Shown here: positions 9,597-26,231 of the stretch, in pieces
How positions within the stretch are numbered: position 1 is the stretch's first letter
How the letters are laid out: the number at the start of each line of letters is the position of its first letter
Assembly (NCBI GenBank): GCA_030524715.1
Contig: JAUNGB010000013.1
Coordinates: 1-64,000, forward strand
From: Eubacteriales bacterium
GTDB lineage: Bacteria; Bacillota; Clostridia; Lachnospirales; Lachnospiraceae
DNA length: 64,000 nucleotides
Direction of reading: 5' to 3'
Translations under genes and position numbers: made by a program
Notes under the pieces: model-generated
Told to the model about the DNA's origin: nothing
The model's database searches: none
Seen by the model: the letters and a program-made list of their open reading frames with translations, nothing else

Positions 9597-11126
9597 TTAA
9601 AATTCTGCAACAGCCATCAATGCAATTCCTTCTTTCCCCGGCAGTACTGGTGCAAATTTTCCTTTTACCCCTCTGTATACGACTTTTCTTGTCATTTCCC
9701 AGATGTCGATCATCTCTATCCGGTAGGTATGATCTTCAGGCAGAATCCATCTTACCATGCCGCAGCATCGGCGGCCAAAATATTCCAGAAATACCTGATC
9801 GCCCACATGACCGCAGCATATGCCGTCTTTTTCCCTCATACTTTCCTGCTGTTCCTTTGGCATTCCATCATACAGCTTTTTAAAGAAATCTTCCGGCGCC
9901 TTTGACATCAATCCCTGATCCGGCAGTTCCCACTGCTTTTGCTTCCAGGGTTCTAAGGTACCAGGCAGTTCTTCAAGAATTCCCTTTAAAAACGTAATCC
10001 TCTCCGGACTGCTTCCTTTTAGCATGCCTCCTTTTGACCACCACAAAACCTCATTCTCGTCCAGAAATACTTCTCCATGCGACGCATAAGCGCCAGGCAC
10101 GCACGCCTGCCAGAATTTATTTGCCATTTCAAAGCCAGAAAGATTCCCCCAGGACATAGGCAGATTTCCTTCATAACAACACTCATCATAAATCAAAGGC
10201 TTCTGATATTTCTCCAGCCACATGGCTGCACTCTCAAGCTGTGTTGTCTGTACACAGCAATGTGTAATGTTCGGTCTGGTAAAATCATAGAAAGAAAAAC
10301 AATTGTGATTGCTAAGCAGGTGATGATACGGATCATTTGCTGCAATAAATTCTTCAATCTCATACCATTCGTCCATTGTCCTGGCATACATGAGATCAAA
10401 TTCATTCGCCATACTCCACCATATTTCCGGAATCGCCGCCAGCCTGCGAAGCAGGTAATCCAGATAGATACGGCACTGCTCCATACTAAGTATAGAAAAT
10501 CCCCATTTATCATATGGATGGAAAAGAATCAGATCTGACTGTATCCCCTGCGCTGCCAATCTGAAAATAACATTCTCCAAATGCTTCCAGAATTCAAAAC
10601 AGGGGCGGTTTACATCCCAGTTTCCATCAGTATCTTTTTCAAAAGCATACAGCCTCGGATCATTATGGTTATATTCATAATATTTGGGAAATACACAATG
10701 ACGCACCTTATTAAACGGAGCTGTCTTCAATGTCTCCATTGTCTGCGCAATCTGCTTTTCCTCCTGGTGCGCCAATGCATAAATGGTTGTTCCTACCGGC
10801 AAAAATGCAGTTCCGTCACTGTATTCAAACCGGATTCCATTTGCCCGGATAATCCCTTTGTCATATTCTTTTGCCGGTTCACAGTTTTCACAGCCCTCTT
10901 CTCTGAAACATCCTGTTACCTGCCACTGATATTCTCCTGCTTCCTCCGGCAGAAAACGCACCTTATATACATGATTTCCGTCATAAAAACCTTTTACTTT
11001 TTTGGATTTCTGTTCCCCTGTCCGGGCGGATTTCCATGTAAATACAGCTTCCATGTCGATTACGGCCCGGGAGCCTTCCGGCTCCGCTCCGTGAAACTCC
11101 AGTTCAAACAATTGATATTGTTTCAT
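9597..11126 (-). CDS. Glycoside hydrolase-like protein (DUF5060 / DUF4038-type barrel / DUF5605)
   Basis: 509 residues from the ATG at 11126, which has AGAGAGG six bases upstream; a longer frame opens at a TTG at 11165 but lacks a site. The N-terminal beta domain (about 1-75, 'YKVRFLPEEAGEYQWQVTG') looks like DUF5060. The central barrel has FLPVGTTIYALAHQ, 'MANEFDLMYART' (candidate acid/base Glu after Asn) and 'KPLIYDECCYEG' (candidate nucleophile). The C-terminal beta part resembles DUF5605. Relatives include GH140-type apiosidases and other plant-polysaccharide hydrolases. No signal peptide, so it acts on imported oligosaccharide. It follows oppF-like 11268-12224 with a 141-base gap and probably ends that operon. 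Confidence 0.75.
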   Translation of the reverse strand: MKQYQLFELEFHGAEPEGSRAVIDMEAVFTWKSARTGEQKSKKVKGFYDGNHVYKVRFLPEEAGEYQWQVTGCFREEGCENCEPAKEYDKGIIRANGIRFEYSDGTAFLPVGTTIYALAHQEEKQIAQTMETLKTAPFNKVRHCVFPKYYEYNHNDPRLYAFEKDTDGNWDVNRPCFEFWKHLENVIFRLAAQGIQSDLILFHPYDKWGFSILSMEQCRIYLDYLLRRLAAIPEIWWSMANEFDLMYARTMDEWYEIEEFIAANDPYHHLLSNHNCFSFYDFTRPNITHCCVQTTQLESAAMWLEKYQKPLIYDECCYEGNLPMSWGNLSGFEMANKFWQACVPGAYASHGEVFLDENEVLWWSKGGMLKGSSPERITFLKGILEELPGTLEPWKQKQWELPDQGLMSKAPEDFFKKLYDGMPKEQQESMREKDGICCGHVGDQVFLEYFGRRCCGMVRWILPEDHTYRIEMIDIWEMTRKVVYRGVKGKFAPVLPGKEGIALMAVAEF

Positions 11127-11267
11127 CAGTTTCCTCTCTTCTCTTTGTAAATTTTTAATCTTCAATTATGTATGCAGTCAGTGTTACATCTTCTTTTTCT
11201 TCATATAATCTAATTTTTTCTACAAACCTCACTCTGCCTCCACACGTTTTCCTTTTTGGAAAAATTC

Positions 11268-12224
11268 CTACAGATCATTTAATTCCTTTACCCGGCAGCA
11301 GGATACGAAATGATTCGGTTCCACTTCTTCCAGTTTCTGCGGCTTTTTGCATGCTTCTGTTGCATATTTACATCTTGCGGCAAAACGGCAGCCAGGAGCA
11401 GGATTGATCGGAGAAGTAAGCTCACCCATAAGAATTTCCCTTTTATTCGGATTGTGAATATCCACAGAGGGAATCGCAGAAAGCAGCGCTCTTGTATAGG
11501 GATGCATTGGTTTTTTGAAGAGTTCTTTCGAGGGACTCTTTTCGACCATCTGCCCCAGATACATTACCAGGATATCATCTGAAATATGTCTTACAACCGA
11601 CATATCATGTGTAATAAACATATATGTCAGCCCTTTCTCTTTCTGGAGCTTCCGAAGCAGATTAAGTACCTGCGCCTGAATGGAAACATCCAGTGCGGAA
11701 ACCGGTTCATCGCAGACAATAAACTTCGGATCAAGCGCCAGCGCACGGGCGAATCCCACTCTCTGCCGGCGTCCGCCGTCCAGTTCGTGAGGATAAGCCT
11801 TGCTCAGTCTCTGGTCAATTCCCACAAGTTCCATCAGCTCCTGGGCTTTCTGATACATCTCGCCTTTCTTAAACCTTTTGGAAACCTTTAACGGTTCGAC
11901 AATTGTCTGTTCAATAGTTTTACGGGGATCCAAAGAGGAATAAGGATCCTGGAACATAATCTGCATCTGCTCCCGAGCTTTTGCCAGTTCCTTTCCTTTT
12001 ACATGAGTAATATCTCTTCCTTCCAGAAAAATCTGACCTTTTGTACTTTCCAATAAATGTACGATCGTGCGTCCCAGAGTAGATTTTCCGCAGCCGGATT
12101 CTCCTACCACGCCAAGGGTTTTTCCTTCTTCAATGGTGAAAGATACGTCATCCACTGCATGCAGCATTCCTCCCGGCGTAGGGAAATATTTAAACAGATT
12201 TTTTACTTCGATCACTGTGCCCAT
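11268..12224 (-). CDS. Opp/Dpp-type ABC transporter ATPase, F subunit
   Basis: 318 residues: Walker A GVVGESGCGKST, signature region with an unusual ELDGGRRQRVGFARAL instead of LSGGQ, Walker B FIVCDEPVSALDVS, and the family-specific C-terminal segment with CRFAARCKYATEAC. Partner of the D-subunit ATPase, with which it overlaps by one base. The family moves oligopeptides, but family members also import oligosaccharides; the surrounding sugar genes favour the latter here. Confidence 0.88.
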   Translation of the reverse strand: MGTVIEVKNLFKYFPTPGGMLHAVDDVSFTIEEGKTLGVVGESGCGKSTLGRTIVHLLESTKGQIFLEGRDITHVKGKELAKAREQMQIMFQDPYSSLDPRKTIEQTIVEPLKVSKRFKKGEMYQKAQELMELVGIDQRLSKAYPHELDGGRRQRVGFARALALDPKFIVCDEPVSALDVSIQAQVLNLLRKLQKEKGLTYMFITHDMSVVRHISDDILVMYLGQMVEKSPSKELFKKPMHPYTRALLSAIPSVDIHNPNKREILMGELTSPINPAPGCRFAARCKYATEACKKPQKLEEVEPNHFVSCCRVKELNDL

Positions 12225-13222
12225 TAATGAATACCTCCCTCTTTAACTTTATCCAGATTAACGCAGCGGCATTTATGTCCATCCGGGGTTTTCACTTCCG
12301 GAATTTCTCCCTGGCGGCATGCTTCCGTCGCATAAGGACATCTCGGATGAAATGCACAGCCTTTTGGAAGATTGGAAGGATCAGGCGGAAGCCCGTCAAT
12401 TGGATGAAGATATTCTTCGTCCACATTCATGCTTGGAATCGCGTTAAACAATCCGATCGTGTACGGATGGCTTGGATGGTCAAATATCTGATCTTTTGTT
12501 CCCTGCTCTACGATTCTGCCCGCGTATACTACTGCAACATCATCACAGACTGACGCTACAACGCCAAGATCATGGGTGATCAGAACCATGGAGGTATTGT
12601 TCTTTTTTTTCAGATCATTGATCATATCCAGAACCTGCGCCTGAATCGTTACGTCCAAAGCTGTCGTCGGCTCATCTGCCAGCAGGATATCCGGAGTACA
12701 TGCCAACGCAATCGCAATTACAACACGCTGTTTCATTCCTCCTGAAAACTGGTGCGGATACTCTTTATATCGCGAGGCTGGTATTCCAACCATTTCCAGC
12801 ATTTCTCCGGCACGCTTTTCTCCTTCTTCCTGGGAAATATCATTGTGGTGCATAATCACTTCCTTAATCTGTTCGCCCACACGCATCGTCGGATTCAGGG
12901 CTGTCATCGGATCCTGAAAAACCATAGAAATCAGGTTTCCGCGGTTCTTTCTCATTTCTTCTTCCGAAAGCGTTAAAAGATCTGTTCCTTCTACCAGAAC
13001 CTGGCCGCTGCGTACATGTGCCGCACGATCCGGAAGTATCCGAAGAATCGTCTTGGCGATCGTCGTCTTCCCTGCTCCTGTTTCTCCTACAAGGCCAATA
13101 GTTCTTCCTTTTTCCAAATCAAATGAAACACCGTTTACAGCCTGAATTTTCTGGCCGTCTGATGTATATTCCACTACCAGATCTTTCACAGACAGGAAGA
13201 TTTTTCTATTCTTTTCAATCAT
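12224..13222 (-). CDS. Opp/Dpp-type ABC transporter ATPase, D subunit
   Basis: 332 residues with Walker A GLVGETGAGKTT, signature FSGGMKQRVVIAIAL, Walker B ILLADEPTTALDVT, H-loop LITHDLGV, and the terminal Opp-type segment CAFHPRCPYATEAC. It forms the ATPase pair with 11268-12224. It lies 15 bases after the C permease gene in the order A-B-C-D-F typical of dpp/opp operons. Confidence 0.9.
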   Translation of the reverse strand: MIEKNRKIFLSVKDLVVEYTSDGQKIQAVNGVSFDLEKGRTIGLVGETGAGKTTIAKTILRILPDRAAHVRSGQVLVEGTDLLTLSEEEMRKNRGNLISMVFQDPMTALNPTMRVGEQIKEVIMHHNDISQEEGEKRAGEMLEMVGIPASRYKEYPHQFSGGMKQRVVIAIALACTPDILLADEPTTALDVTIQAQVLDMINDLKKKNNTSMVLITHDLGVVASVCDDVAVVYAGRIVEQGTKDQIFDHPSHPYTIGLFNAIPSMNVDEEYLHPIDGLPPDPSNLPKGCAFHPRCPYATEACRQGEIPEVKTPDGHKCRCVNLDKVKEGGIH

Positions 13223-13237
13223 TTTTGTTTTTCCTCC

Positions 13238-14098
13238 TTAGTCCTTAAGCTTTGGATCCATGGCATCACGCAGGCCGTCGCCAAGCAGGTTTAATGCCAG
13301 TACTGTAATTGCGATTGCAAGTCCCGGGAACAATACCATATAAGGACAGTCCCGAATGTAGTTTCTGGAAGCAGAAAGCATTGCGCCCCACTCCGGCGTC
13401 GGAGCCTGAACACCAAGGCCGATAAAGCTTAAGCTTGCTGCTGTCAGGATCAGGTTTGCAACGTTCATGGTACATGCCACAATTGATGGAGAAATGGCGT
13501 TTGGAAGCACATGTACAAAGATCGTGCGTATTTTGCTGCAGTTAATGGAATCAGCAGATTCCAGATATTCCATTTTACGGATGGACATTACCGAGCCCCG
13601 CACCAGACGGGCTGCTCCCGGAATTCCGCCCACAGCCAAAGCAACCAGTGTATTCATAAACCCCGAACCCAGTGCTGTTGCAATGACAATGTTAAACAAA
13701 ATAGGCGGCATTGCCTGAATAATATCCAGGATACGCATAACAATATTATCCAGCGTACCGCCATAATATCCCACGATAGCCCCAATAATCGTTCCTATAA
13801 CAGTTGTGAGCAATGTGGCAAAAATACCAATGGAAAGAGAATATCTTGCCCCGTAAATGATACGGCTGAAAATATCTCGTCCCAGCTCATCTGTGCCAAA
13901 TAAATGTGACAAAGAAGGAGCTGCTTTTGCATTTAAAACATCAATTGCATTCCAGTCATACGGAACGATCCATTTTGCAAGAATTGCCAGAACAATTTCG
14001 ATCGCCACTATGATCAGGCCAAACATTGCCGTTTTATTCTTTGCCAGCCGATACATGATGTCCATTATCTGGCTGTTCTTTTTTGTTTTTCCTGCCAT
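13238..14098 (-). CDS. Opp/Dpp-type ABC transporter permease, C subunit
   Basis: 286 residues. The N-terminal cytoplasmic stretch leads to a first helix (FGLIIVAIEIVLAILAKWIV), then the family hallmark GTDELGRDIFSRIIYGARYS, and five further helices. It overlaps the B permease gene by one base (its ATG shares the A of the upstream TGA/TAA junction), indicating coupled translation. Confidence 0.9.
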   Translation of the reverse strand: MAGKTKKNSQIMDIMYRLAKNKTAMFGLIIVAIEIVLAILAKWIVPYDWNAIDVLNAKAAPSLSHLFGTDELGRDIFSRIIYGARYSLSIGIFATLLTTVIGTIIGAIVGYYGGTLDNIVMRILDIIQAMPPILFNIVIATALGSGFMNTLVALAVGGIPGAARLVRGSVMSIRKMEYLESADSINCSKIRTIFVHVLPNAISPSIVACTMNVANLILTAASLSFIGLGVQAPTPEWGAMLSASRNYIRDCPYMVLFPGLAIAITVLALNLLGDGLRDAMDPKLKD

Positions 14099-15066
14099 TA
14101 TGCCATTTCCTCCTTCCTCTTTTTCTTTTTAGATTCACCTTCATACTGGGCCTTAATTCTGGGATCTACGAACGCATATGCGATATCCACAAGAAGCATA
14201 CACAAACTGAAGACAATCCCCAACAGAACTACACATCCCTGTACTACCGGATAATCGCGGCTGGTGATTCCTGACATCATATAAAGTCCAATACCGTTGA
14301 TACTAAACACTGTCTCAATGATTATGGAACCGCCGAATACTCCTGCAAAAGAACCGCCTGCCACCGTAATGATAGGAATCAATGCATTGGTAAGAATATG
14401 TTTCCAGATAACTTCTTTTTCTTTCAGGCCTTTAGAACGTGCCGTAGTAATATAATCGGAACGGATGGTTTCCAGGACACTGGATCTTGTCTGTCTTGCA
14501 ATGCCGGCAATACCTCCAATGGATGTTGCCACCGCCGGAAGTATATAATATTCAATACCTCCCATACCGGATGCAGGCAGCCAGTTAAGCTGAACGGAAA
14601 ACAGAAGCACCAGCATCAATGCCAGCCAGAACGCAGGCATGGAAACTCCAATCAGCGCGACGATCATACACAGCCGATCCTGCCACTGGTTCTGATGAGT
14701 GCCTGCCATAATGCCAAGCAAAATCCCTACTACAAAAGAAATCACCATACTGACGGCGCCCAGGCCAAACGTTCTTGGTAAACGGGAAAAAATTTCCGTA
14801 GCGATCGGAACACCCGTTACATAAGAGGTTCCCATATCCAGATGAAAGAACAATCCGCTTATATAATCTCCAAGCTGCGCAATAAAGGGTTTATCCAATC
14901 CCAGGTTATGCTGCAGCGCCGCAATCTGCTCAGGTGTGGCTGTCACACCCAGGATCATCTTAGCGGGATCACCGGGAACCAAATGTAAAATAGAAAAAAT
15001 CAATACAACGATTCCAAGTATAATCGGAATCATCCATAAAAGACGTTTTAATATGTATCTGCCCAA
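14098..15066 (-). CDS. Opp/Dpp-type ABC transporter permease, B subunit
   Basis: 322 residues. N-terminus MGRYILKRLLWMIPIILGIV with 'LHLVPGDPAKMILG' is typical of DppB/OppB. The ATPase-contact loop is ARSKGLKEKEVIWKHILTNA. Six membrane segments are predicted. A lysine- and glutamate-rich tail (ESKKKKRKEE) ends the protein. It is separated from the binding-protein gene by 119 bases that include a strong hairpin. Confidence 0.9.
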   Translation of the reverse strand: MGRYILKRLLWMIPIILGIVVLIFSILHLVPGDPAKMILGVTATPEQIAALQHNLGLDKPFIAQLGDYISGLFFHLDMGTSYVTGVPIATEIFSRLPRTFGLGAVSMVISFVVGILLGIMAGTHQNQWQDRLCMIVALIGVSMPAFWLALMLVLLFSVQLNWLPASGMGGIEYYILPAVATSIGGIAGIARQTRSSVLETIRSDYITTARSKGLKEKEVIWKHILTNALIPIITVAGGSFAGVFGGSIIIETVFSINGIGLYMMSGITSRDYPVVQGCVVLLGIVFSLCMLLVDIAYAFVDPRIKAQYEGESKKKKRKEEMA

Positions 15067-15185: not shown

Positions 15186-16763
15186 TTATTCAAATTTTGT
15201 GCAGGCAATAAAGAAATCCTGCTGCGTCATCGACAGATACGGAACATCTACTGCGCCAAGGTCTTTGCGGAATACATAATACTGTGATGTTGCAATCAGG
15301 TTCTGTCCATAACACATTTCATTGATATAATCACTTGCAATCGTTGCATTTTCTGTTGTATGACCCTCTATTGTATTTACTGTGCTCAGTACTTCTTTTA
15401 ATTTTTCATCCTTTACTGCCATACCAAGCGCGCCATTATCTCCGCCTGCAAGATCCCATGACAGGAAGGACCATACAAAGGCAACATCGCTCATACCCAT
15501 CTGGCATACTGCGATATCCCATGCGGAACCGTCGCCAAAACTGGACTGGAACATTGCATTATCATAGGAAGTAATTGCTACATCCAGACCGATTGCCATT
15601 AACTGTCCCTGTACGATTGCTGCAATACGATTATGGTTATCCTCATTTGGAACCAGAAGTCTTAACTGTTCTCCATTGTAGCTGGATTTTGCAAGATACT
15701 CTGCTGCCAGTTCCGGATCATACTTGAAGTAATCCTCACTTGCGCTGGAAGGCGTCAGATCAGACATTCCATCCGGCGCCCCCATATAAGTCGGTACTAC
15801 GGCAAGTCCGTCAAATGCCCCCTGAACGATCACGTCCTTATCAATTGCGTGAGCAATTGCATAACGTAGATTCAAATCTTCACTGCAAATGCCCTGATTT
15901 GCATAATAGAAGCAATAGCACGTTGGAGAAGCGTAGCCTAAAGCGGTAAAGTTGTCTGCATCACGTCCGCCTTCCAGGAAATTGCCGATCTCTGTATTGG
16001 CAATATTGGCATATACGTCGATTGCCCCTGTCTCCAATGCGATGGTCTGCTGTGCCGCTTCACTGATTTTTGTATAATACAGTTTGTCTACGGTAGCCTC
16101 TTTGTACAACGGATTCTGCAGGCTCTCGTCTGTCTGCCAGTAATTCGGATTCTTTTCAAAAGTAATGGATACATTCGGCACAAAGTCCGTTACCATATAT
16201 GGAGCAGTGCTTACACTGGTGGTAGTCATAGAATCTTCACTTGCTTCATAAGCAGCCTTGCTTACGATAGGTGCACGGTTCATTGCTGTAGGGAAAGTAC
16301 TTACCGCATCATCTACCAATGTCACCTTTACCGTATAGTCACCTGTAACCTCCGCACTTTCAATCCAGGTATTGGCAGCCTCATCTCTCGCATGCTCTAA
16401 TGAAAATACAACATCCTCGGGTGTAATGTGATTGCCTTCTGTATCTGTAATATAGTCATAAATCTCAATATCATAAGTAATGTTGTCTTCTGTAGACCAA
16501 TCCTTGGCAAGAATGCCATAGAAATTTCCTTCTGCATCTTTCTCGATCAATGTTTCATATAAATAGATACATACAGGCTGTCTGTTTGTAAAGCTTGTAA
16601 ACGGAGAAATATTCTGCGGCGCTGTAGTCGCTCCCACCTTAAGCTCCCTTCCCCCTTCTTCTTCGGCGCTTACCGGAATACTTCCTGCTGTTAAGGAAAC
16701 AGCCATTCCGAAAGCAAGCATCCCTGATAACATTCTTTTTTTCATTCTTGTGTTTCTTTCCAT
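15186..16763 (-). CDS. Family 5 extracellular solute-binding protein of the Opp/Dpp-type transporter
   Basis: 525 residues. Family 5 binding-protein pattern: LKVGATTAPQNISPFTSF, 'VCIYLYETLIEKDAEGNFYG', 'AKDWSTEDNITYDIEI', 'ITPEDVVFSLEHARDE', then 'NLRYAIAHAIDKDVIVQGAF'. The signal peptide ends SIPVSA|EEE and lacks a lipobox Cys, which is unusual for a Gram-positive binding protein and implies release by ordinary signal peptidase. The start region is duplicated: GAAACACAAGAATG occurs twice 18 bases apart, giving starts at 16763 and 16745; the first is nearer to AAAGGAG. First gene of the transporter operon, divergent from an AraC-type regulator. Confidence 0.88.
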   Translation of the reverse strand: MERNTRMKKRMLSGMLAFGMAVSLTAGSIPVSAEEEGGRELKVGATTAPQNISPFTSFTNRQPVCIYLYETLIEKDAEGNFYGILAKDWSTEDNITYDIEIYDYITDTEGNHITPEDVVFSLEHARDEAANTWIESAEVTGDYTVKVTLVDDAVSTFPTAMNRAPIVSKAAYEASEDSMTTTSVSTAPYMVTDFVPNVSITFEKNPNYWQTDESLQNPLYKEATVDKLYYTKISEAAQQTIALETGAIDVYANIANTEIGNFLEGGRDADNFTALGYASPTCYCFYYANQGICSEDLNLRYAIAHAIDKDVIVQGAFDGLAVVPTYMGAPDGMSDLTPSSASEDYFKYDPELAAEYLAKSSYNGEQLRLLVPNEDNHNRIAAIVQGQLMAIGLDVAITSYDNAMFQSSFGDGSAWDIAVCQMGMSDVAFVWSFLSWDLAGGDNGALGMAVKDEKLKEVLSTVNTIEGHTTENATIASDYINEMCYGQNLIATSQYYVFRKDLGAVDVPYLSMTQQDFFIACTKFE

Positions 16764-16920
16764 TCTTGTGTTTCTCCTTTCTTTTTACATTGTTTTTTTA
16801 CTTTTGGCGGCACTTCTAAAACAAATACCGCACTTCATGTCCTCCCTTTGCTGTCCTGTCTACACAATACTCTCATCCCTGCTGATTCGCAATTTTTCAT
16901 TTCTCAGCTTTGGTTTTCTT

Positions 16921-16951
16921 TTTTCAGAAATCTGAATCCTTGTCCATTATA
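16921..16951 (-). promoter_or_regulatory. Promoter -10 with downstream palindrome, site 1 (Opp-type operon)
   Basis: Minus strand: TATAAT (16951-16946), eight bases, then the palindromic ATTCAGATTTCTGAAAA (16937-16921). An equally spaced copy (TATTGT, eight bases, the same 17-base palindrome) precedes the lactonase operon at 24598-24628. No good -35 is present at either site, as expected for activator-dependent promoters. The gene start lies about 175 bases downstream. The rest of gap 16764-17067 holds the regulator's promoter and nothing else I can name. Confidence 0.6.
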
Positions 16952-16984
16952 TTTAAAATATGTCATAGAAAATCAGATTTATTG

Positions 16985-16993
16985 TGTTATAAT
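16985..16993 (+). promoter_or_regulatory. Extended -10 promoter of the AraC-type regulator gene
   Basis: TGTTATAAT on the plus strand, a full TGn-TATAAT, about 75 bases before the ATG at 17068. No clear -35. Confidence 0.5.
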
Positions 16994-17067
16994 CGAATCA
17001 AATAAATGGCAATGACCATTTTTTCATTTTATTTCCAACTTTAAACAGAAAGGAGATTTATAGAAAA

Positions 17068-19506
17068 ATGATACGAAAGAAAGTGAAGAGTGCATCCCAT
17101 CTTCCCATAAAAAAGGCTAAAAATACTTCTTCAGTGAAAAAACATACCCTACAGTATTACGCTGGCATTCTCCTGCTCTTTTTGCTTTTATTCTCCATCT
17201 GCCTTGTTTCTATTACAAATATCATCTCTAAAATCTTTAGAGATGATGAACCGGATATTAACAAAACAATACAGCAATACCTGAGTACTTCTTTCTCTTC
17301 CAATATTGACAGTCTCTATACCTATAATATAGACAAACCCATGGAAAACTTTTTTAATTCAAGCGCGGTGACAAGCTTTCTTTTTTGTACGCCCCAGTAT
17401 CCGCCGGCTGATGAGTTGAAAGAATATCTGCAGGAGGGGCTTTCCGCTCTTGCTTCCAACTCTGACTACATTACTGCTGCCGCTATTTATGCTTCCGCAT
17501 CCAATACCTGTGTTTCCAGCCAGTGTTCTGACGATACAGGCCAGGAAGCATTCGATCTTTTTTTCACTGACATGGTCTATGACTATAATAGCAATGCACT
17601 TGATAAAAATAAGATCGCCAGCAGTAATTTTAATACCTTCCTGTTTGGATATCAGGATTACATCATATTCTCTAAGGATCTGACCACCTTGTCAGGATCC
17701 CCCCATGCGACTTTGTTTCTGCTCATGGATATGGACGCCTTTTCTTCTTTTTTATATAAAGCAAATGGAAGGATCCCATACAGAGTCAGCGTTTATGATG
17801 CTCATAATAAGCTGCTGTTTTCCAATACTGAAAATGGAACAAAAATGGCTTACACCCAGTTACTGGATCTTGCTTCCAGTAATTTCAGCACAAAGCAGAT
17901 TAATAATACCAGTTATATTTACTGCGGTTCTGACACGATTGGCATACAATACATACTGGAAATGGATTTGCTTCCCATTCCCGGAAGCTCATCCGATTCA
18001 TGGCTTATGTACCTTATCATCCTTTTTACTGTCATTGTGGCTGTTCTCCTTGTTTCGGTACTTATTTTTTTCCGTTTCCGAGATTCTGCCGAACAGTTTG
18101 CTGCCACAATGGAACTACTGGGAATAAAGGGAGGCTCACCTGCCCAATTATCAGCATCCCTGAATAAACGTGTAGATACGCTCATCAACGAAAATGCTGC
18201 TTTCCAAAAAATCGTCAGGGCAACATCTTCAGAAGCGGTTTCTCATCTGTTTGCCAAGCTGATTACCGGAGAACCAGTGGAAAAAGATGAGACACGGATC
18301 ACCTTGTCCAATACCGGATATGGTTTTCGCATAGATGACATTTATATTGCCGGAATTCTCCACCAAACTGTATCCGGCTTTATTAAGGCTTCAAACCGAA
18401 ATAAGATTTTGAATTTACTTAATTCCATTTTTGAGAAATTCAAAGAAAAAACCGACTGTAATGTTTGCGCATTCCTCTTTGATGAAAAGTCCTTCGTAAT
18501 TATTGCTTCTTTCCCGGCAGGCACTTCTATTGCAAAAGGAAAGGCAAAAATTAATGACCTTACACAAAAAATAATGGAGGGAATTGCATTCTTACAATTG
18601 CCAATGATCGTTTCCTTCGGGCATATGTATAATTCCATTCTGGATTTGCCTTTTTCTTATAATGAAGCCTTCAAAACAATGCATTATAAGCTTGAAGCTG
18701 CAGCAAATGCGGATACGAATACAGACGCCATACCCTTTCCTCCTTCAGCGCCGGAAGAATTATCCTCTTCCCCGCCTGATTCCATTCCGGAAACAGAAGA
18801 TATCCCTGCTTCACAGGACGTCTCCGAGCAAATCGACCGCAGGGCTTCCCAAATTGCCCAGCTTATCTGGGATGGGAGGGAGGATCATGTTTCCAGCCTG
18901 GTGGAACGTACACTTTCCGGCATATTTAAAACCGTCTCCCCTGCTGAGCAAAGTGAAAACTGTAAACGGCTGATCAGCGCGCTAACGAGCCATATGCTTT
19001 CCTACCCATTTGTAAATGACAGCCATCTTACCAATGTATATGATACTGTTTTGCCCCTTATTAATACGGATTCCTCTTCTGAAACCCTCCATCAGGGTAT
19101 TTCAGATGCCCTTTCCGTTCTTTGCCATGACTTCTCAGAGGCAATTAAAAAGCAACACAGCCCGTACATTATTGCCACACAAAGATATATAGAGCTTCAC
19201 TACAGCAATCCTGATTTATCTCTTGAAGAAATTGCAGAGAATTTAAAAATAGCGCCCAATTATCTGAGCACTATTTTCAGCAAGAACCTGGGGATCAAAC
19301 TTTTTGAATATATTAATAAATACCGGATTGAAAAATCCATTAAGCTGCTCTTGGACACAGACATGACCGTTAATGATATCAGTACGGAATGCGGCTTTAA
19401 TTCATCCCGGAATTACATAAGAATCTTTAAAAAGTATAAAGAAAATACTCCCGGAGCGTACCGGAAGCAGCATCTGCCTGCTGCACAGGCACATAAGCAA
19501 AAATAA
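17068..19506 (+). CDS. Membrane-anchored AraC-family transcriptional regulator
   Basis: 812 residues. After a basic N-terminus comes a first membrane helix (about 29-53), an extracellular sensor of about 255 residues, a second helix (about 310-333, SWLMYLIILFTVIVAVLLVS), a cytoplasmic linker, and a C-terminal AraC DNA-binding domain (about 705-800): LSLEEIAENLKIAPNYLSTI and TVNDISTECGFNSSRNYIRI, then FKKYKENTPGAYRK. This plan is common for regulators of carbohydrate loci in Lachnospiraceae and related Firmicutes, where the outer part senses a sugar. It is divergent from the Opp-type operon and is the best candidate to act on the paired palindromic sites at 16921 and 24598. GGAG lies before the ATG. 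Confidence 0.9.
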   Translation: MIRKKVKSASHLPIKKAKNTSSVKKHTLQYYAGILLLFLLLFSICLVSITNIISKIFRDDEPDINKTIQQYLSTSFSSNIDSLYTYNIDKPMENFFNSSAVTSFLFCTPQYPPADELKEYLQEGLSALASNSDYITAAAIYASASNTCVSSQCSDDTGQEAFDLFFTDMVYDYNSNALDKNKIASSNFNTFLFGYQDYIIFSKDLTTLSGSPHATLFLLMDMDAFSSFLYKANGRIPYRVSVYDAHNKLLFSNTENGTKMAYTQLLDLASSNFSTKQINNTSYIYCGSDTIGIQYILEMDLLPIPGSSSDSWLMYLIILFTVIVAVLLVSVLIFFRFRDSAEQFAATMELLGIKGGSPAQLSASLNKRVDTLINENAAFQKIVRATSSEAVSHLFAKLITGEPVEKDETRITLSNTGYGFRIDDIYIAGILHQTVSGFIKASNRNKILNLLNSIFEKFKEKTDCNVCAFLFDEKSFVIIASFPAGTSIAKGKAKINDLTQKIMEGIAFLQLPMIVSFGHMYNSILDLPFSYNEAFKTMHYKLEAAANADTNTDAIPFPPSAPEELSSSPPDSIPETEDIPASQDVSEQIDRRASQIAQLIWDGREDHVSSLVERTLSGIFKTVSPAEQSENCKRLISALTSHMLSYPFVNDSHLTNVYDTVLPLINTDSSSETLHQGISDALSVLCHDFSEAIKKQHSPYIIATQRYIELHYSNPDLSLEEIAENLKIAPNYLSTIFSKNLGIKLFEYINKYRIEKSIKLLLDTDMTVNDISTECGFNSSRNYIRIFKKYKENTPGAYRKQHLPAAQAHKQK

Positions 19507-19535
19507 CCCATAAAAAATTCTCAAGGAGGATACAC

Positions 19536-20027
19536 ATGAAAATAATTATAAATAAAACCAACGCCATCCTTTCCGGATTCACTGCTCTCTTTATGAGCAT
19601 GTTCTGCATTTATTATTTAAAAAGCGGCATGTATCCGGAAGCGCCTGTATTTTTGATCATTGCTTTGATATTTAGCTGTCTTTTTATCAGGAACGCCTCT
19701 TCCCTTACTGTCACCCAGAACTCTGTTTCCCGTTCCTTTTTCGGATTTCGAAAAAAAGAGCTGCTATGGGCTGACGTAAAAGAAGTAGGGCTTATTGGTG
19801 AAAATGTTTTTAGCCATAATAAGAACAGAACCGGACATAAATATATTTACATTTCTCCCAGGTCAATGACACAAAAAGAACGCTTTGATATGATTGTAAA
19901 ATGGCCGCCCAAGAATATTCTTTATATGGAATATAGTAAAAAAAATCTGGAATACACCATGGCCATCTGGGGAAAAGAATTAAAAACCTATAATGTAGAG
20001 GATCTGTTTCCTAATACGGAAGATTAA
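19536..20027 (+). CDS. Small membrane protein with PH-like domain
   Basis: 163 residues. Two hydrophobic helices (about 8-28 and 35-52) are followed by a soluble part reading SLTVTQNSVSRSFFGFRKKE, then LLWADVKEVGLIG, which is the strand pattern of bacterial PH-like domains. Conserved function is unknown. AAGGAGG precedes the start, and the gene follows the AraC-type regulator by 29 bases, so the two are probably cotranscribed; a role in sensing at the membrane is conceivable but not shown. Confidence 0.7.
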   Translation: MKIIINKTNAILSGFTALFMSMFCIYYLKSGMYPEAPVFLIIALIFSCLFIRNASSLTVTQNSVSRSFFGFRKKELLWADVKEVGLIGENVFSHNKNRTGHKYIYISPRSMTQKERFDMIVKWPPKNILYMEYSKKNLEYTMAIWGKELKTYNVEDLFPNTED

Positions 20028-20043
20028 AAAAGCTTCCGACCGA

Positions 20044-21204
20044 TCAGTTTAAGCCCTTGTACACCTTCTGCAGTTCAAGGGCTTTTGCCCGATATGCATA
20101 ATTGTGATGAGCCTCTCTTACAATTCCGAATTTTGCCTCTGACTCATTTGTAAAGATTCCATTACTCACTGCATTGGAATCTTCCTCTTCAAATAAGCGG
20201 AAAAAATGACAGGTTTTTACATAAGGCATTTGCTTCAGAAGTTCATAGCATTTTGGAATCAATGCCGCCTGTTCTTTTTCCCGCTGCTCATTCCAGCAGT
20301 CAGAGAAACCAAATTCCGTAAGCAAAACCTTCTTTTTTCCATCACCGTGCTTTGCCATAATATGATACGCCATATCGTTATAGCTTTTCCAAAGTGCATC
20401 CGGCATATCTTCTGTCAGGTACATTTTCTCTGCCGGATAGGATGTATTACAGGGAGCATAACCCATTTGTGTTGACAAATACGGATGCCAGGCTACCATA
20501 TCAAAATAATCATCCGTATTTTTTGAAAAAGATCTGCCCTCTTCAATACACCGATACATAATATCCAGGCACACCGCAATTCCATAACAGCCCGGGACGC
20601 CCTCCGGAAGATAATGCCCCATACTATCCGGAGTGGGTGAAAAGCTGACAACCGTACAGCCCGGATCTGCCCTGCGGATTCCTCTGGCGGAAACATACAT
20701 CAGATCACAGGCCATCAGCATCATCTCTTCGATCGTATAAGCTTTCTCTCCTGCCCTCCATCCGACCGGATGCATGAACAATGGGAAATTCCACTCATTT
20801 CCTACCTCCCACTGCCGGATCTGCGGAAATCTCCGTACAATTCTCTCCCAGTTCCTCTCTGTTGCCTCAAGCACCCGGCAATATGGACTTCCCGGTGTAA
20901 GATCTCGTTCCGGTATCGCCAGATTATCTCCATGGCTGATGTCGAAGGGTACTGTCGGTTCAGAAACTCCTGTAACCTCAATATCATTTTGCACACATAA
21001 ATCCAGTGTCTTGTCATATACAGCGCATATTTTATCATAGTCTTCTTCTGCAGGCGACATTGCTTCTGACATCCATTCACGGAAAGCAGTTACCCCAAGG
21101 TCTTTCATAATTCCCACCGCAATTTCCGGTGTTGTCTTTCCTTTCAGGACATCCATCGTAACCGGCTCGCCAATTCCGTACAATCTATTTTTTCTGTAAT
21201 TCAT
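20044..21204 (-). CDS. Glycoside hydrolase-like TIM barrel protein (clan GH-A, GH39-like)
   Basis: 386 residues without signal peptide. The clan GH-A pattern is visible: 'IRQWEVGNEWNFPLFMHP' with the Asn-Glu acid/base pair (about 140) and 'KKVLLTEFGFSDCWNE' with the nucleophile Glu (about 300). YFDMVAWHPYLS between them fits the barrel strand with a conserved His. The nearest recognised type is GH39-like, but the exact family and substrate are uncertain. AGAGGTG precedes the ATG. It is the last gene of the lactonase-SDR-dehydratase operon, 62 bases after the dehydratase gene, and would act on intracellular oligosaccharides. Confidence 0.72.
   Translation of the reverse strand: MNYRKNRLYGIGEPVTMDVLKGKTTPEIAVGIMKDLGVTAFREWMSEAMSPAEEDYDKICAVYDKTLDLCVQNDIEVTGVSEPTVPFDISHGDNLAIPERDLTPGSPYCRVLEATERNWERIVRRFPQIRQWEVGNEWNFPLFMHPVGWRAGEKAYTIEEMMLMACDLMYVSARGIRRADPGCTVVSFSPTPDSMGHYLPEGVPGCYGIAVCLDIMYRCIEEGRSFSKNTDDYFDMVAWHPYLSTQMGYAPCNTSYPAEKMYLTEDMPDALWKSYNDMAYHIMAKHGDGKKKVLLTEFGFSDCWNEQREKEQAALIPKCYELLKQMPYVKTCHFFRLFEEEDSNAVSNGIFTNESEAKFGIVREAHHNYAYRAKALELQKVYKGLN
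20051..20084 (+). terminator. Intrinsic terminator of the regulator/PH-like transcript
   Basis: AAGCCCTTG and CAAGGGCTT form a 9-base stem, followed by TTTT on the plus strand. It is placed over the last codons of the convergent gene 20044-21204. Confidence 0.5.
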
Positions 21205-21266
21205 ACCTGTACACCTCTTTCACCTGTTTTTCATTATGGTTTTTATGGTTTTCATTATAGTTCTTC

Positions 21267-22481
21267 TTACGGCCTGACCGGGGTACCGTCCGGCAGTCTT
21301 GTCAAAAACCAGTTGTGAGAATGCTCACGGAACTGTGCCGGATATTCCTTCGCCATCTCTTCATCCACATCAATACCAAGTCCAGGCTTTTTGTTTGGAT
21401 ACAAATAGCCGTTTCTTACTTCAGGGCATCCCGGGAACATCTCTTTTTCTATCTCAGAAAATCCAAAGAACTCCTGGATTCCGAAATTTGGTACATTTAC
21501 GTCAATGTGAAGCTGGGCTGCAACACCAACAGGAGAAATATCATGGGGACCGTGCCATGCCGTTTTTACTCCATAATATTCTGCAAAAGCCGCAAGCTTC
21601 CAGGCGGGGGTGATGCCTCCGATCATACTGATGTGGCAGCGTATGTAATCAATCATTCTTTCTGAAATCAGCTTCTTATATTCCGCCGGATTTGTAAACA
21701 GCTCACCCATTCCAAGAGGGATATGGCTCTGGCTTCGTATCAGAGAATACCAGTCGCTGTTTTCCGGGGATAACGCATCCTCCAGGAACAAAAGATTGTA
21801 TGGCTCCAGTTTCTTTGCAACCTGCAGTGCCTCAATGGGCGCCAATCGCTCGTGTATATCATAGCAAAAATGAATATCTGTTCCTGCAAAATCCTCCTTC
21901 AGCCTGCGAAACATTTCTCCGGCCTGCTCTGCAATATCATAATTGTTAAAATATGCCCCATCTTTGGCATTTTCGGTTTTCACAATAGGATAGACAGACG
22001 TACCTTCCATGTGCTCACATCCCACTCTCACATAACGGAAGCCTTCTGCAATATATTTCTGAACCGCCTGTTTTAATTCCTGATAGTTGTTTCCATGGGC
22101 ATGGCGGTAAACTGCGGCTCCCTGCCTGCATCTTCCTCCTAAAAGCTGATAAACAGGCATTCCTGCCATTTTTCCCTTAATATCCCAAAGAGCCTCATCA
22201 ACACCTGAAATAGCATTATTCAATACAGGACCCCTGCGCCAGTATGAGCTTCCAATCGCCGACTCCCACAAATCTACTATATCGTCAACATTTCTTCCAA
22301 TAAGAAGCGGCTTTAAATTCACCTCAAGAGCTGTCTTCACTGCCTGCCAGCGTTGTGTAAATGTGGCGCATCCCAGACCATAAAGTCCAGGCTCTGTGGT
22401 TTCTACTTTCACTACAAGCAAGTCAACTCCATTGGGAGCTGTCGCTATCGTTCTGATATCTTTTATTTTTATATCTGACAT
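21267..22481 (-). CDS. Enolase-superfamily sugar-acid dehydratase, ManD/RspA-like
   Basis: 404 residues. Motifs of the mannonate dehydratase-like (ManD/RspA) group: FCYDIHERLAPIEALQVAK (metal Asp and following segment), LFLEDALSPEN (metal Glu), GMGELFTNP (third metal ligand), and the late 'KTAWHGPHDISPVGVAAQLH'. Family members dehydrate aldonates such as D-mannonate or D-gluconate to 2-keto-3-deoxy acids; many members are slow or of unknown substrate. Here it sits downstream of an SDR (two bases apart) and a lactonase, which suggests it dehydrates the aldonate they produce. Confidence 0.82.
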   Translation of the reverse strand: MSDIKIKDIRTIATAPNGVDLLVVKVETTEPGLYGLGCATFTQRWQAVKTALEVNLKPLLIGRNVDDIVDLWESAIGSSYWRRGPVLNNAISGVDEALWDIKGKMAGMPVYQLLGGRCRQGAAVYRHAHGNNYQELKQAVQKYIAEGFRYVRVGCEHMEGTSVYPIVKTENAKDGAYFNNYDIAEQAGEMFRRLKEDFAGTDIHFCYDIHERLAPIEALQVAKKLEPYNLLFLEDALSPENSDWYSLIRSQSHIPLGMGELFTNPAEYKKLISERMIDYIRCHISMIGGITPAWKLAAFAEYYGVKTAWHGPHDISPVGVAAQLHIDVNVPNFGIQEFFGFSEIEKEMFPGCPEVRNGYLYPNKKPGLGIDVDEEMAKEYPAQFREHSHNWFLTRLPDGTPVRP

Positions 22482-22483
22482 CT

Positions 22484-23272
22484 TTATTTCTCTCCTTTCA
22501 CTCTTTCCGGCATTCCGGGAAGAATTAGCCCGCCGTCGACTCTAAGTGTAATTCCCGTTATGTAAGATGCATTTTCAGAAGCCAGAAAGGCCGCCGCCTT
22601 TCCAATATCCTCCGGTCGTCCCATACGTCCGAGAGGAATTTTCTTTCCAAGCTGCTGATATATTTCCTTCATCGATTGGTATTCTTCCTCACCCTCTGTC
22701 CGTACCTCAACAGATCCCGGCGCCACGTTATTAATACGAATTCCATAAGGAGCCAGTTCTAAAGCAAAGGATTGAACGGCACGATTAAGTCCCGCCTTAC
22801 ACGCCCCGTAAATCCCATCGCCAGGATAAGCACGTTCTCCTCTCGTAGATGTAATATTGATGATACATCCGCAAATTTTATGCTCTTTCATATAACTGGC
22901 ACAAATCTGCATCATCCATATATAGTTCTTAAAATCCAGATTAAGCAGTAAGTCCATTTTTTCTTCTGTAATATCTAAAAGATTTTCAAACCATGTCACT
23001 CCTGCATTGTTTACCAGTACGTCAGCCCCTCCCAAATATTCCGCAGCGTTTCCAAAAAATATTTCCGCCTGCTTTTTATTCTGAAAATCCGCCTGAAAAC
23101 AGCCGCAGTTTATCTCAAACTTCTCCTGTAATTCCTTTGCAAAAGCCAATGCTGCCGCTTCTCGTTTGTTATAGGAAAAAGCAACATCGTACCCCTTTGA
23201 AGCCAGTTCCAGCACAATCCCTTTTCCAATACCATGGCTGCCTCCTGTTACAATCGCTTTCTTTCTTATCAT
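22484..23272 (-). CDS. SDR-family oxidoreductase, probably a sugar dehydrogenase
   Basis: 262 residues from the ATG at 23272 (GAAGGGA upstream); the frame can be extended to 23326 but only into the lactonase gene. Rossmann motif TGGSHGIGKG near the start, NNAGVT (about 90), catalytic Tyr-Lys in YGACKAG, and 'PGSVEVRTEG' and 'SENASYITGITLRVDGG' typical of glucose-1-dehydrogenase-like SDRs. In this operon it would oxidise an aldose to its lactone for the neighbouring lactonase. Substrate and cofactor preference cannot be read. Confidence 0.82.
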   Translation of the reverse strand: MIRKKAIVTGGSHGIGKGIVLELASKGYDVAFSYNKREAAALAFAKELQEKFEINCGCFQADFQNKKQAEIFFGNAAEYLGGADVLVNNAGVTWFENLLDITEEKMDLLLNLDFKNYIWMMQICASYMKEHKICGCIINITSTRGERAYPGDGIYGACKAGLNRAVQSFALELAPYGIRINNVAPGSVEVRTEGEEEYQSMKEIYQQLGKKIPLGRMGRPEDIGKAAAFLASENASYITGITLRVDGGLILPGMPERVKGEK

Positions 23273-23294
23273 CTGAAAATCCCTTCTCTTTTTC

Positions 23295-24365
23295 TTATAT
23301 TTCCGCCGCTTTAACTGCTTTAACAAAAACTGCCTCGGGAATTCTTACATCCGATAATGGCTCTCCTATTTCTCCTGTCTGCGGATTTCTTTCACAGAGC
23401 ACTACGTTTCCGCTTTTCTGATTTGCGATCAATACAAACCTGTCATCCGGCGTAATGCAAAAATTACGGGGAAAACTTCCTCCACAGCTATAATGGCCGA
23501 TTATTTCCACTGTTCCATTTTCTCTGGAAACCCGGAATGCAGCAATACTATCAGCCCCTCTGTTCGATGTATACAGGAATCTTTCATCCATGGAGAAATG
23601 AATATCCGCACCGAGATTAAAGTCCCCAAAGCTTTCCGGCAGCGTACTTACAATTTGTATTTCCCGAAAGCTTTCTCCATCCTTTTCTGATTCATAAACA
23701 AGCAATTTACTTCCCATTTCTGTCAGAACATACAAAAATCTTTCGTCTTTACTGAACACAAAATGCCGTGGTCCTGTGCCCTTGGGCGTATGAATCTGCA
23801 TATCTTGTTTTCCGGGAAGAAGCTTTCCCCCATCAAGGATCTCATAGCAAAAAATCTGGTCAAGTCCCAAATCCGAAGCATATAGCCGTTTTCCATCCCC
23901 GGAAACACATGTTGCATGTATATGAGGTCCCTCCTGACGCACCTGATTTTCAAACCCTACTCCTTCATGCTGCTTAAAATCGCAAATTTCCTGTACACCA
24001 GTCTTTTCATCCACCCGGCATACAACGAGGCTGCCGCTCATATAATTTGCAGCCGAAATATATTTTCCATCCGGCCAGAGATACAGATGGCACATAGCAG
24101 TCCCTTCTGTTTTTATTTTATTGACATGCTCCAATTCACCCGTAACACAATTTCTCAAAAAGGAATGAATATACCCGCAGTCCTCAAGCTCACTGACTGA
24201 AAACAACCAATTCTGTGTGACACACAAAAATGAAGGATTTAAACTTACCTCCGGATAGGAATTCCGTATGACCAGCTTCTTTTTCTCTGTGTTTAATTCC
24301 AACAGATAAATTCCATCTCCACCCTTTTCTCCCATATAAGAGCCTGCATAAACATGGTAAATCAT
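23295..24365 (-). CDS. Lactonase family beta-propeller (6-phosphogluconolactonase-like)
   Basis: 356 residues in the seven-bladed propeller lactonase family (PF10282). Repeated blades are seen in 'GEKGGDGIYLLELNTEKKKL', 'PDGKYISAANYMSGSLVVC', 'GDGKRLYASDLGLDQIFCYE' and 'MDERFLYTSNRGADSIAAFR', with 'GTGPRHFVFSKDERFLYVLTE' carrying the conserved Arg-His. It would open the sugar lactone made by the SDR. GGAG precedes the ATG. A 34-codon reading frame lies directly upstream. Confidence 0.85.
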   Translation of the reverse strand: MIYHVYAGSYMGEKGGDGIYLLELNTEKKKLVIRNSYPEVSLNPSFLCVTQNWLFSVSELEDCGYIHSFLRNCVTGELEHVNKIKTEGTAMCHLYLWPDGKYISAANYMSGSLVVCRVDEKTGVQEICDFKQHEGVGFENQVRQEGPHIHATCVSGDGKRLYASDLGLDQIFCYEILDGGKLLPGKQDMQIHTPKGTGPRHFVFSKDERFLYVLTEMGSKLLVYESEKDGESFREIQIVSTLPESFGDFNLGADIHFSMDERFLYTSNRGADSIAAFRVSRENGTVEIIGHYSCGGSFPRNFCITPDDRFVLIANQKSGNVVLCERNPQTGEIGEPLSDVRIPEAVFVKAVKAAEI

Positions 24366-24399
24366 CTTCTGTCGTTCTCCTTTTTCTTCATTGTTTTAA

Positions 24400-24504
24400 T
24401 TAGTAAATATCTCCATTATCCTGTATATCATGTTCTTTTCCTGCAGCATCTATTGACGCTTTTCTAAACAGATCATTAAAATATTCCGCAAGTTCACTTG
24501 GCAT
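24400..24504 (-). CDS. Small ORF, 34 codons, first in the lactonase operon
   Basis: Minus-strand ATG at 24504 with a perfect AGGAGG 6 bases upstream; the peptide begins MPSELAEYFNDLFRKASI and ends in a Tyr before TAA at 24400. It is acidic, without membrane helix or signal. The stop lies 35 bases before the lactonase start. Further upstream (24535-24560) another AGGAGG is followed by a start-stop pair ATG GTG TGA. The peptide could be a real microprotein or a leader that couples translation. I do not recognise it. Confidence 0.6.
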   Translation of the reverse strand: MPSELAEYFNDLFRKASIDAAGKEHDIQDNGDIY

Positions 24505-24597
24505 ATTCTTTCCTCCTGATTCTCCTGTCATCTTTTTCACACCATACTATTTTCCTCCTGGATTATCAATTTTTAATTTTTCATCTTCAGTTATTGC

Positions 24598-24628
24598 TTT
24601 TCAGAAATCTGAATAGTTGTCTACAATA
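24598..24628 (-). promoter_or_regulatory. Promoter -10 with downstream palindrome, site 2 (lactonase operon)
   Basis: TATTGT (24628-24623), eight bases, then ATTCAGATTTCTGAAAA (24614-24598), exactly the arrangement of site 1 at 16921-16951. It lies 35 bases after the hipA-like stop codon and about 95 bases before the small ORF. Confidence 0.6.
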
Positions 24629-24648
24629 TGAAAAAACACAAATAATAA

Positions 24649-25908
24649 TTATTTAAATTCCATATCAAATGCGGATTCCATATATTCACAAGCACTTCGT
24701 GTCAAACCACATTTTTCAGCAAGTAATTTCCAATTCTTGCATACGACCTCCGTAATTTTCTCGATCATCTCACCAGCCTCAAGCTTATTTATCCCAAAAT
24801 ATTTTGCTACACTCATTGCAAGTTCCAGCGAAATGGAATTATCATCCATACTGACATTTAAGGACAGGTTATTTCCATACGGGACTGGATTTACATCATA
24901 GAGCGGGGACAATCTCCATCCATTTTTGGTCAAAATAAATCCATGGTTTCTTAAATGGTCATCTGTATTTGATACTGCCATGTTAAACACAATCCTTTTC
25001 CATAATTCTTTCAAATCCCGTTTCGGCTCTGCTCCGTTCGACTTAATAAAAGAGACCAGTTCCAAATAACTGGATCCATCTTCTCCCGATGCGCCATCCA
25101 TCTTTCCGAGCAGGGTCATTGCTGAGGCAAAATGAATTCTTCTATCGCAATCCCTGTCAAACCGCTTTACAAGAAAAGTAGAACCATTTCGGGAAAATGT
25201 TTCCAATTTTGCTTCCGGTACATCAAGCCCACACATTTTTGCCAAATCATGAACTACCATTTCCCACGCGCCGAAATTATATTCATCATGCTTAGATGGG
25301 AATTTTGCAATCCACAGGTTTCCTTTCTCATCCTTTACCGTAGCTTTTGGGCGAGCCCCTCCAAGAGATGATCCTGGTGCTAAAAGTTGCCGCAGCCATT
25401 TTGTTTCCAATCCACTTTCATCATTTTCAAAGCCCCAACTGGCAGCTTCCAATGTACGCAATGTAGTCCATGGAGGGGTGGCCAGTTCCTGATCATCCGA
25501 CAAAAATATACCGTTTCTTTCAGTTTTGAAACGTAATGCACCCATACGTGCTTTGTCATATACCCCCAACAGATAATCACTTTCTCCTAATTTCTTTGGT
25601 TTTCGCTCTTCTCTTCTGGCCAGTTCTGCTTCTCTTCTCCGCATCAGAAGTCTTCCCCATCTGTCCGGACATGAATCTGCAAATACTCCGAACAATATTT
25701 TATCCATTGGTACATAATGTCTTCCGTTATATAATAACAAATCAGGATCCAAAAGATAATTTGCTGTTGGAGATGTCAACCATTCTGTTTCATATTCAAA
25801 AGAAAATTGTTCTTTTCCTCTGATAAAAGAAACATAAAGTTTTCCAATTAATTGGGGGACTGATTCAGTCCAATTTTCATAGACAAATATTGATTTTTCT
25901 TCCATCAT
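24649..25908 (-). CDS. HipA-family kinase toxin
   Basis: 419 residues. HipA features in order: N-terminal subdomain, the glycine loop LAPGSSLGGARPKATV (about 177-192), catalytic lysine in LWIAKFPS, 'FLVKRFDRD', the catalytic loop AVSNTDDHLRNHGF (about 315-328) and the metal-binding LSPLYDVNP. E. coli HipA phosphorylates glutamyl-tRNA synthetase GltX; targets vary in other members. It overlaps the antitoxin-like gene by four bases (ATGA). The kinase motifs look intact, so it is probably active. A gltX gene lies 23 kb away in this window but physical linkage is not informative. Confidence 0.88.
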   Translation of the reverse strand: MMEEKSIFVYENWTESVPQLIGKLYVSFIRGKEQFSFEYETEWLTSPTANYLLDPDLLLYNGRHYVPMDKILFGVFADSCPDRWGRLLMRRREAELARREERKPKKLGESDYLLGVYDKARMGALRFKTERNGIFLSDDQELATPPWTTLRTLEAASWGFENDESGLETKWLRQLLAPGSSLGGARPKATVKDEKGNLWIAKFPSKHDEYNFGAWEMVVHDLAKMCGLDVPEAKLETFSRNGSTFLVKRFDRDCDRRIHFASAMTLLGKMDGASGEDGSSYLELVSFIKSNGAEPKRDLKELWKRIVFNMAVSNTDDHLRNHGFILTKNGWRLSPLYDVNPVPYGNNLSLNVSMDDNSISLELAMSVAKYFGINKLEAGEMIEKITEVVCKNWKLLAEKCGLTRSACEYMESAFDMEFK

Positions 25909-26231
25909 GTTTCACTTCTTTCTTTTGGCGCACGTTTTCTGGTCACAAGTTCCAAATCCTGCAGCTTACGTCCAAACTCATCATCCTTTGCGATCAGTAA
26001 TAAATCTTTATCTAAATTGTTTAACGCATGTAATACTGCCGCATACATTCCAATCGCTACCGTAGGCGCTCCTTTCTCTATAGACCATAAGGTCGCACGA
26101 CTAATTCCTGCACGTTCCGCGACCAATTCTGCTGATAATTTTCTGCGAAGCCTGGCTAATTTGATTTGTTCTCCCATTTGCTCCAGAATCATTTCTGTCT
26201 GCGGCATAATAACAACTGTTTTTTTACTCAT
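25905..26231 (-). CDS. HipB-like XRE-family antitoxin/repressor
   Basis: 108 residues from the ATG at 26231 (AGGAG ten bases upstream). The XRE helix-turn-helix is MGEQIKLARLRRKLSAELVA followed by ERAGISRATLWSIEKGAPTV, and the C-terminal tail is charged. It precedes the HipA-like gene with a four-base overlap, the usual order for autoregulated hipBA pairs. A frame extension to 26291 exists but overlaps the promoter. Confidence 0.85.
   Translation of the reverse strand: MSKKTVVIMPQTEMILEQMGEQIKLARLRRKLSAELVAERAGISRATLWSIEKGAPTVAIGMYAAVLHALNNLDKDLLLIAKDDEFGRKLQDLELVTRKRAPKERSET

Follow-up and report, generated by a model that had tools for sequence, protein, structure and literature searches.

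A Shared Upstream Module at Two Putative Sugar Operons and a Candidate Membrane-Bound AraC-Type Activator Encoded Between Them

The Two Operons and the Regulator Gene

The window, that is, the whole 64-kb stretch of DNA analysed, carries two minus-strand gene groups with a large plus-strand gene for an AraC-type protein between them (Table 1). The gene assignments made at first pass, an Opp-type transporter operon and a lactonase/SDR/dehydratase/GH operon, hold by Pfam. The apiosidase-like hydrolase is probably co-transcribed with the transporter, as its position suggests. The dehydratase falls below the cut-off of its two nearest models, scoring 376.6 bits for ManD (cut-off 550) and 369.5 bits for the D-galactonate dehydratase family (cut-off 430). 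A search of solved structures gave one match for the binding protein (SBP; E 1e-15) and none for the GH-like protein (E 0.001) or the SDR (E 1e-40). Both gene groups probably take up and degrade a plant-type sugar.

The regulator was described earlier as a membrane-bound AraC-type protein whose gene lies between both operons, and the description is upheld by Pfam for the HTH and by hydropathy for two hydrophobic segments. HTH_18 matches at 66.2 bits (cut-off 33.6) and HTH_AraC at 52.5 bits (cut-off 26.6), placing the protein in the AraC/XylS family. The hydrophobic segments, predicted by hydropathy alone, are at residues 26-58 and 308-341, around some 250 residues. Proteins with an AraC-type HTH are common. 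A first look at the bacterium's own genome gave 93 candidates; 10 of these were scored, and all 10 matched. Matches were found in 96 of 98 genomes, at most about 10 candidates being scored per genome, and some lie in open frames of 750-800 codons; outside the own genome, the matches listed cover the C-terminal part alone.

Table 1. Features of the two operons, the regulator gene and their control regions (window coordinates).
Feature	Position	Strand	Remarks
Apiosidase-like glycoside hydrolase	9597..11165	-	DUF5060/Apiosidase/DUF5605
Opp-type two permeases and two ATPases	11268..15066	-	14098-15066, 13238-14098, 12224-13222, 11268-12224
SBP_bac_5 binding protein	15186..16763	-	First gene of Opp-type operon
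Conserved module, site 1	16864..16957	-	About 95 bp, upstream of Opp operon; aligns without gaps to site 2 and L071
Proposed -10, site 1	16864..16869	-	TATTGT, spacer 17
Proposed -35, site 1	16887..16892	-	TTGCGA
Proposed proximal half-site, site 1	16892..16906	-	Starts TGAGAAA, 20 bp on, reaching -35; predicted
Proposed distal AraC-type half-site, site 1	16912..16926	-	Starts TGAAAAA; predicted
17-mer, site 1	16921..16937	-	ATTCAGATTTCTGAAAA; about -80 to -64 of proposed promoter
Possible outermost third repeat, site 1	16932..16946	-	TGGACAA; by eye from alignment, weak
Candidate promoter of AraC-type gene	16966..16993	+	TAGAAA-16-TATAAT, TG before -10; consensus scan, near-chance counts
AraC-type regulator	17068..19506	+	812 aa, C-terminal HTH_18
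GH-like protein	20044..21204	-	DUF5722 and Glyco_hydro_cc matches, both below cut-offs
MR/MLE sugar-acid dehydratase	21267..22481	-	
SDR oxidoreductase	22484..23326	-	
Lactonase	23295..24365	-	7-bladed beta-propeller
Conserved module, site 2	24541..24634	-	Upstream of lactonase/SDR/dehydratase/GH operon; ungapped alignment
Proposed -10, site 2	24541..24546	-	TATGGT, spacer 17
Proposed -35, site 2	24564..24569	-	TTGATA
Proposed proximal half-site, site 2	24569..24583	-	Starts TGAAAAA, reaching -35; predicted
Proposed distal half-site, site 2	24589..24603	-	Starts TGAAAAG; predicted
17-mer, site 2	24598..24614	-	ATTCAGATTTCTGAAAA

The Repeated 17-mer

The first-pass annotation reported one 17-base sequence upstream of both operons, each copy preceded by a -10-like hexamer without a -35. 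The two copies are exactly identical and lie on the minus strand, at site 1 before the Opp operon and at site 2 before the lactonase operon. The hexamers, TATAAT at site 1 and TATTGT at site 2, are each exactly 8 bases upstream of the 17-mer, as described. With spacers of 15-19 bp and our own weighting, the best -35 candidates are CTGATT before TATAAT (19 bp, score 2.27) and ATAATT before TATTGT (18 bp, score 1.49), the maximum being 4.08. These scores are low, and it is therefore right that the hexamers have no -35.

The 17-mer is the sole exact direct 17-base repeat within the window. A search of the whole genome (5.28 Mb, 210 contigs), which the first-pass annotation had proposed as a check, found these 2 exact copies and none with one mismatch. 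Among the matches listed, 12 places have two mismatches, two of which are readings of a single palindromic site on opposite strands, one base apart. At up to three mismatches there are 74 matches, both sites counted, versus 14 for the reversed control. A pattern for the layout, derived from the two sites themselves, gave 13 matches at up to two mismatches versus 4 for the control; both sites were within the top three, and a third place in the genome has one mismatch.

Orthologous Loci

The SBP was used to find orthologs of the locus. Among 141 relatives, 80 were kept, of which two were 62-67% identical and the next 27%. The two are L071, from a Lachnospiraceae MAG (SBP 67%), and L072, from a Clostridiales MAG (SBP 62%). 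Both have the arrangement seen in the window, a large homologous AraC-type gene divergent from a homologous Opp operon. Homology of the regulator extends along the whole protein: the sensor part is about 32% (L071) and 29% (L072) identical, the HTH 67% and 60%. By hydropathy, the L071 and L072 regulators have similar hydrophobic pairs, that of L072 with a weak third segment at 494-512.

No further close SBP ortholog was found in 397 genomes of the family (three candidates scored per genome; seven matches besides the own genome, at 32-36%), in 47 genomes of L071's genus (one extra match, 36%), in 64 genomes of the own genus or in 308 genomes of L072's family (four candidates scored per genome). 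The regulator used alone, in a contig scan of 92 stretches, gave no confirmed ortholog. The distant SBP relatives L153-L159 have no AraC-type match within the surrounding 4.4-4.5 kb. Relatives of the GH-like protein (L062-L065, 41-43% identity) have no 17-mer at up to four mismatches within 2.7-4.1 kb, and near three of them there are AraC-type matches limited to the HTH. The dehydratase has a homologue of 37% identity in the L071 genome and none in the L072 genome, so that site 2 is without an ortholog for comparison.

After the orthologous Opp operons lie carboxylesterase/BD-FAE-like genes (L071 15598-19599; L072 15823-19744), and the L072 operon also has an apiosidase-like hydrolase downstream, as in the window. 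Together, the carboxylesterase/BD-FAE-like and apiosidase-like genes hint at acylated plant glycosides as the substrate.

The Shared Module and Its Promoter

The sequence shared by the two sites is about 95 bp long and lies mainly downstream of the 17-mer, a similarity absent from the first-pass annotation. Site 1, site 2 and the region before the L071 Opp operon align without gaps from some 20 bp ahead of the 17-mer to some 75 bp past its start, the 17-mer itself having 4 mismatches in L071. On the best 95-bp diagonal, site 1 and site 2 match at 68 of 95 positions, site 1 and L071 at 59, and site 2 and L071 at 58; the maxima in 500 shuffles each were 52, 51 and 50. The ungapped similarity and the retention of the module in the L071 ortholog support the earlier proposal of one regulon.

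A sequence model built from these same three sites was run on both genomes, with 150 of 807 first-look candidates scored in the own genome and 150 of 634 in that of L071; since a part of the candidates was scored, weaker copies of the module could be missed. The two window sites have E values of 1.0e-22 and 2.3e-22, and the next scored candidate 0.019. In the L071 genome, the Opp site alone is strong (E 8.8e-22), the next scored candidate having 0.045. As far as searched, then, the two operons share a cis element that is private to them in their own genome. The L072 Opp operon gave no match to the model, despite the same regulator-transporter pair; there, TTGAAA-17-TATCTT upstream of the SBP gene is the second-best promoter by score.

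Promoters were scored in three 280-bp stretches, with spacers of 16-18 bp and our own weights. In site 1, site 2 and L071, each taken singly and all three jointly, the top-scoring sigma-70-type promoter has the form TTGnnn-17-TAnnnT and the same position, 28 bp past the 17-mer (offset +45). At the L071 module it reads TTGACC/TAGACT, with a spacer of 17, about 350 bp upstream of the SBP start. The best and next scores are 6.05 versus 5.80 at site 1, 6.70 versus 6.28 at site 2 and 6.94 versus 5.82 in L071, a lead that is small at the two window sites and larger in L071. None of 3000 shuffles reached the joint score of the three sequences, a count that is not a strict probability because the three are related. 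A separate consensus scan found the site 2 promoter (9/12) and put that of site 1 below threshold (8/12; each hexamer 4/6); its total of 27 promoter-like sites, versus 19.0 expected from shuffles (sd 4.1), is near chance.

The first-pass annotation placed the shared element downstream of a -10, where it would suit a repressor or a leader hairpin. This placement is not borne out, given the better promoter 28 bp downstream of the 17-mer in all three sequences. From the position of that promoter it follows that the 17-mer lies upstream and would be part of an activator site; with the transcription start put 7 bp past the proposed -10, it spans about -80 to -64. The upstream -10-like stretch is partly conserved, being TTTAAT in L071, and may on that account be a second promoter.

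Half-Site Repeats and Comparison with Known Regulators

We propose that the module contains two direct half-sites. At -69, the sequence starts with TGAAAAA (site 1), TGAAAAG (site 2) or GGAAAAA (L071); at -49, it starts with TGAGAAA, TGAAAAA or TGAAGAA, respectively, and a 15-bp half-site counted from there reaches -35. The proximal half-site overlaps the -35 of the 17-spacer promoter at the same offset in site 1, site 2 and L071; the overlap was not found in L072. The possible third repeat, TGGACAA, overlaps the earlier-noted -10 by one base. Period 20 is the top in the mean of the three sequences; in site 1 it ties with 27, in site 2 period 19 is higher and in L071 it ties with 8. For the invariant columns, period 7 outperforms period 20. 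Column permutations were as good in 14 of 5000 cases at period 20 and in 305 of 5000 when any period between 10 and 31 was allowed. On its own, the predicted 20-bp direct repeat is modestly supported.

YesS of Bacillus subtilis belongs to the membrane-bound AraC-type regulators that serve glycan operons in Bacillota. Its membrane helices flank an extracytoplasmic part, its AraC-type HTH is C-terminal, and transporter and hydrolase genes adjoin its gene. The regulator described here resembles YesS in its predicted membrane segments, its C-terminal AraC-type HTH and its transporter and hydrolase neighbours, but differs in standing beside an Opp-type (SBP_bac_5) importer.

A small literature search found no paper mapping the site of a membrane-bound AraC-type regulator, and PMC11237719 had no match to AraC terms. 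CphR, an AraC-type regulator of Rhodococcus, has one repeat from -69 to -55 and another from -49 to -35 (PMC6205950). The two systems are alike in that the regulator gene adjoins its target and the control region lies between them, and the half-sites proposed here would have the same geometry, two direct repeats 20 bp apart with the proximal one reaching the -35. They differ in the half-site itself, which is TGCA-N6-GGNTA for CphR and a predicted, A-rich TGAnnAA-like sequence here, and in that the present module also stands before a second operon.

Proposed Regulation and Alternatives

The AraC-type membrane protein encoded between the operons is the obvious candidate for the regulator. We consider it probable that an AraC/XylS-type activator promoter is present in two copies, one at each site, and that the adjacent membrane-bound regulator activates both operons. 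We infer regulator binding at the module, activation, the transcription start and the inducer. The proposed scheme is as follows. The protein would sense an extracellular plant-type glycan or glycoside by the loop between its two membrane helices. Through its C-terminal HTH domains it would bind the two TGAnnAA-like half-sites, 20 bp apart, of which the downstream one extends to the -35 (TTGnnn), and the bound regulator would recruit RNA polymerase to TTGnnn-17-TAnnnT. The Opp-type importer with the apiosidase-like hydrolase and the lactonase/SDR/dehydratase/GH operon would thus be switched on together. The 17-mer would be the upstream part of the activator site, not a downstream operator.

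The regulator of such an activator site might instead be encoded elsewhere in the genome. The other AraC-type HTH proteins of this genome, counted above, would offer candidates, but among the scored candidates the module is confined to the two operons beside this regulator, and in both L071 and L072 the regulator gene accompanies the transporter operon; we regard a distant regulator as rather improbable. A different reading puts the start just after the upstream TATAAT/TATTGT, so that a dyad-binding repressor of any family would have the dyad TTCAGA-TT-TCTGAA, at about +2 to +18, as its operator. Both sites carry the same perfect dyad, and the -10-like hexamer stands at an equal offset at both and is partly kept in L071. 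However, the upstream hexamer has no good -35 in site 1, site 2 or L071; the dyad is broken (TTCAAA..TCGGAA) in L071, the one ortholog with the module; and conservation continues for about 60 bp beyond the 17-mer, to the better promoter. Moreover, the only other HTH repressor-like protein among the 23 window proteins scanned is HipB-like (25905-26291); its gene is preceded by no match to the motif, with up to three mismatches allowed. Repression through this dyad is, in our judgement, quite improbable.

Peptide transporters are often targets of CodY, CodY is encoded in this genome, and TTTCTGAAAA is similar to the CodY box core. Against CodY repressor sites, site 1 and site 2 each have 4 mismatches to the 15-base box AATTTTCWGAAAATT, a level equalled or bettered at 118 places in the window and thus no better than chance, and the best L071 sequence has 5. 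CodY would also leave the 95-bp module unexplained, which makes it very improbable as the regulator. Least credible of all is an RNA hairpin in a 5' leader that the two transcripts would share. By itself the 17-mer forms a weak fold of -3.7 kcal/mol, with 5 of 200 shuffles doing as well, but in a 50-nt context it is no outlier (z 0.29 and -1.05) and the stem is absent in L071; given the downstream promoter, the hairpin would not be transcribed. On these grounds the CodY box, the leader hairpin and the dyad operator were all rejected.

The occurrence of the module at two promoters and in an ortholog provides a short, concrete and testable site, and the common module ties the apiosidase-like/Opp uptake operon to a sugar-acid type pathway as one function. 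A bolder form of the proposal, which we hold only tentatively and think doubtful, has the AraC-type sensor, anchored in the membrane, control a private regulon of two promoters from there. It would act through a rigid module in which three TGnnnAA-type repeats follow one another at 20-bp steps and the outermost coincides with a decoy -10. The two promoters, which are 7.7 kb apart on either side of the regulator gene, would then have to reach the membrane.

Other Features of the Region

Just upstream of the regulator gene, TGAAAAANNGGTCATTG is conserved between the window (17010-17026, minus) and L071 (9441-9457). The own genome has one exact copy, and 50 matches at up to two mismatches versus 19 for the control. 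It was considered as the binding site of the regulator, but around site 2 it has no match even with three mismatches allowed, and the sequence is therefore retained as a possible autoregulatory site, which would possibly act downstream of the regulator gene's promoter. The regulator gene is followed by one for a 163-aa protein (19536-20027, plus) with two hydrophobic segments and no Pfam/NCBIfam match.

Short leader frames with ribosome-site-like stretches were seen by eye before the first genes of both operons. The site 1 frame has 17 codons (16838, minus), and in L071 a similar stretch precedes a frame of 6 codons; the site 2 frame has 34 codons and begins MPSELAEYFNDLF (24504-24400, minus). 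A HipBA-like pair, a HipA-like protein with an HTH_3 protein before it (24649-26291), ends 34 bp from the site 2 17-mer. Beyond it, a perfect 23-bp inverted repeat (26362-26384 and 28295-28317; first copy GGGATTCGGGTCAGCTACGCTGA on the plus strand) flanks a gene for a 480-aa SLFN_AlbA_2/RecG-C-like protein (26520-27962), as if it were a cassette boundary.
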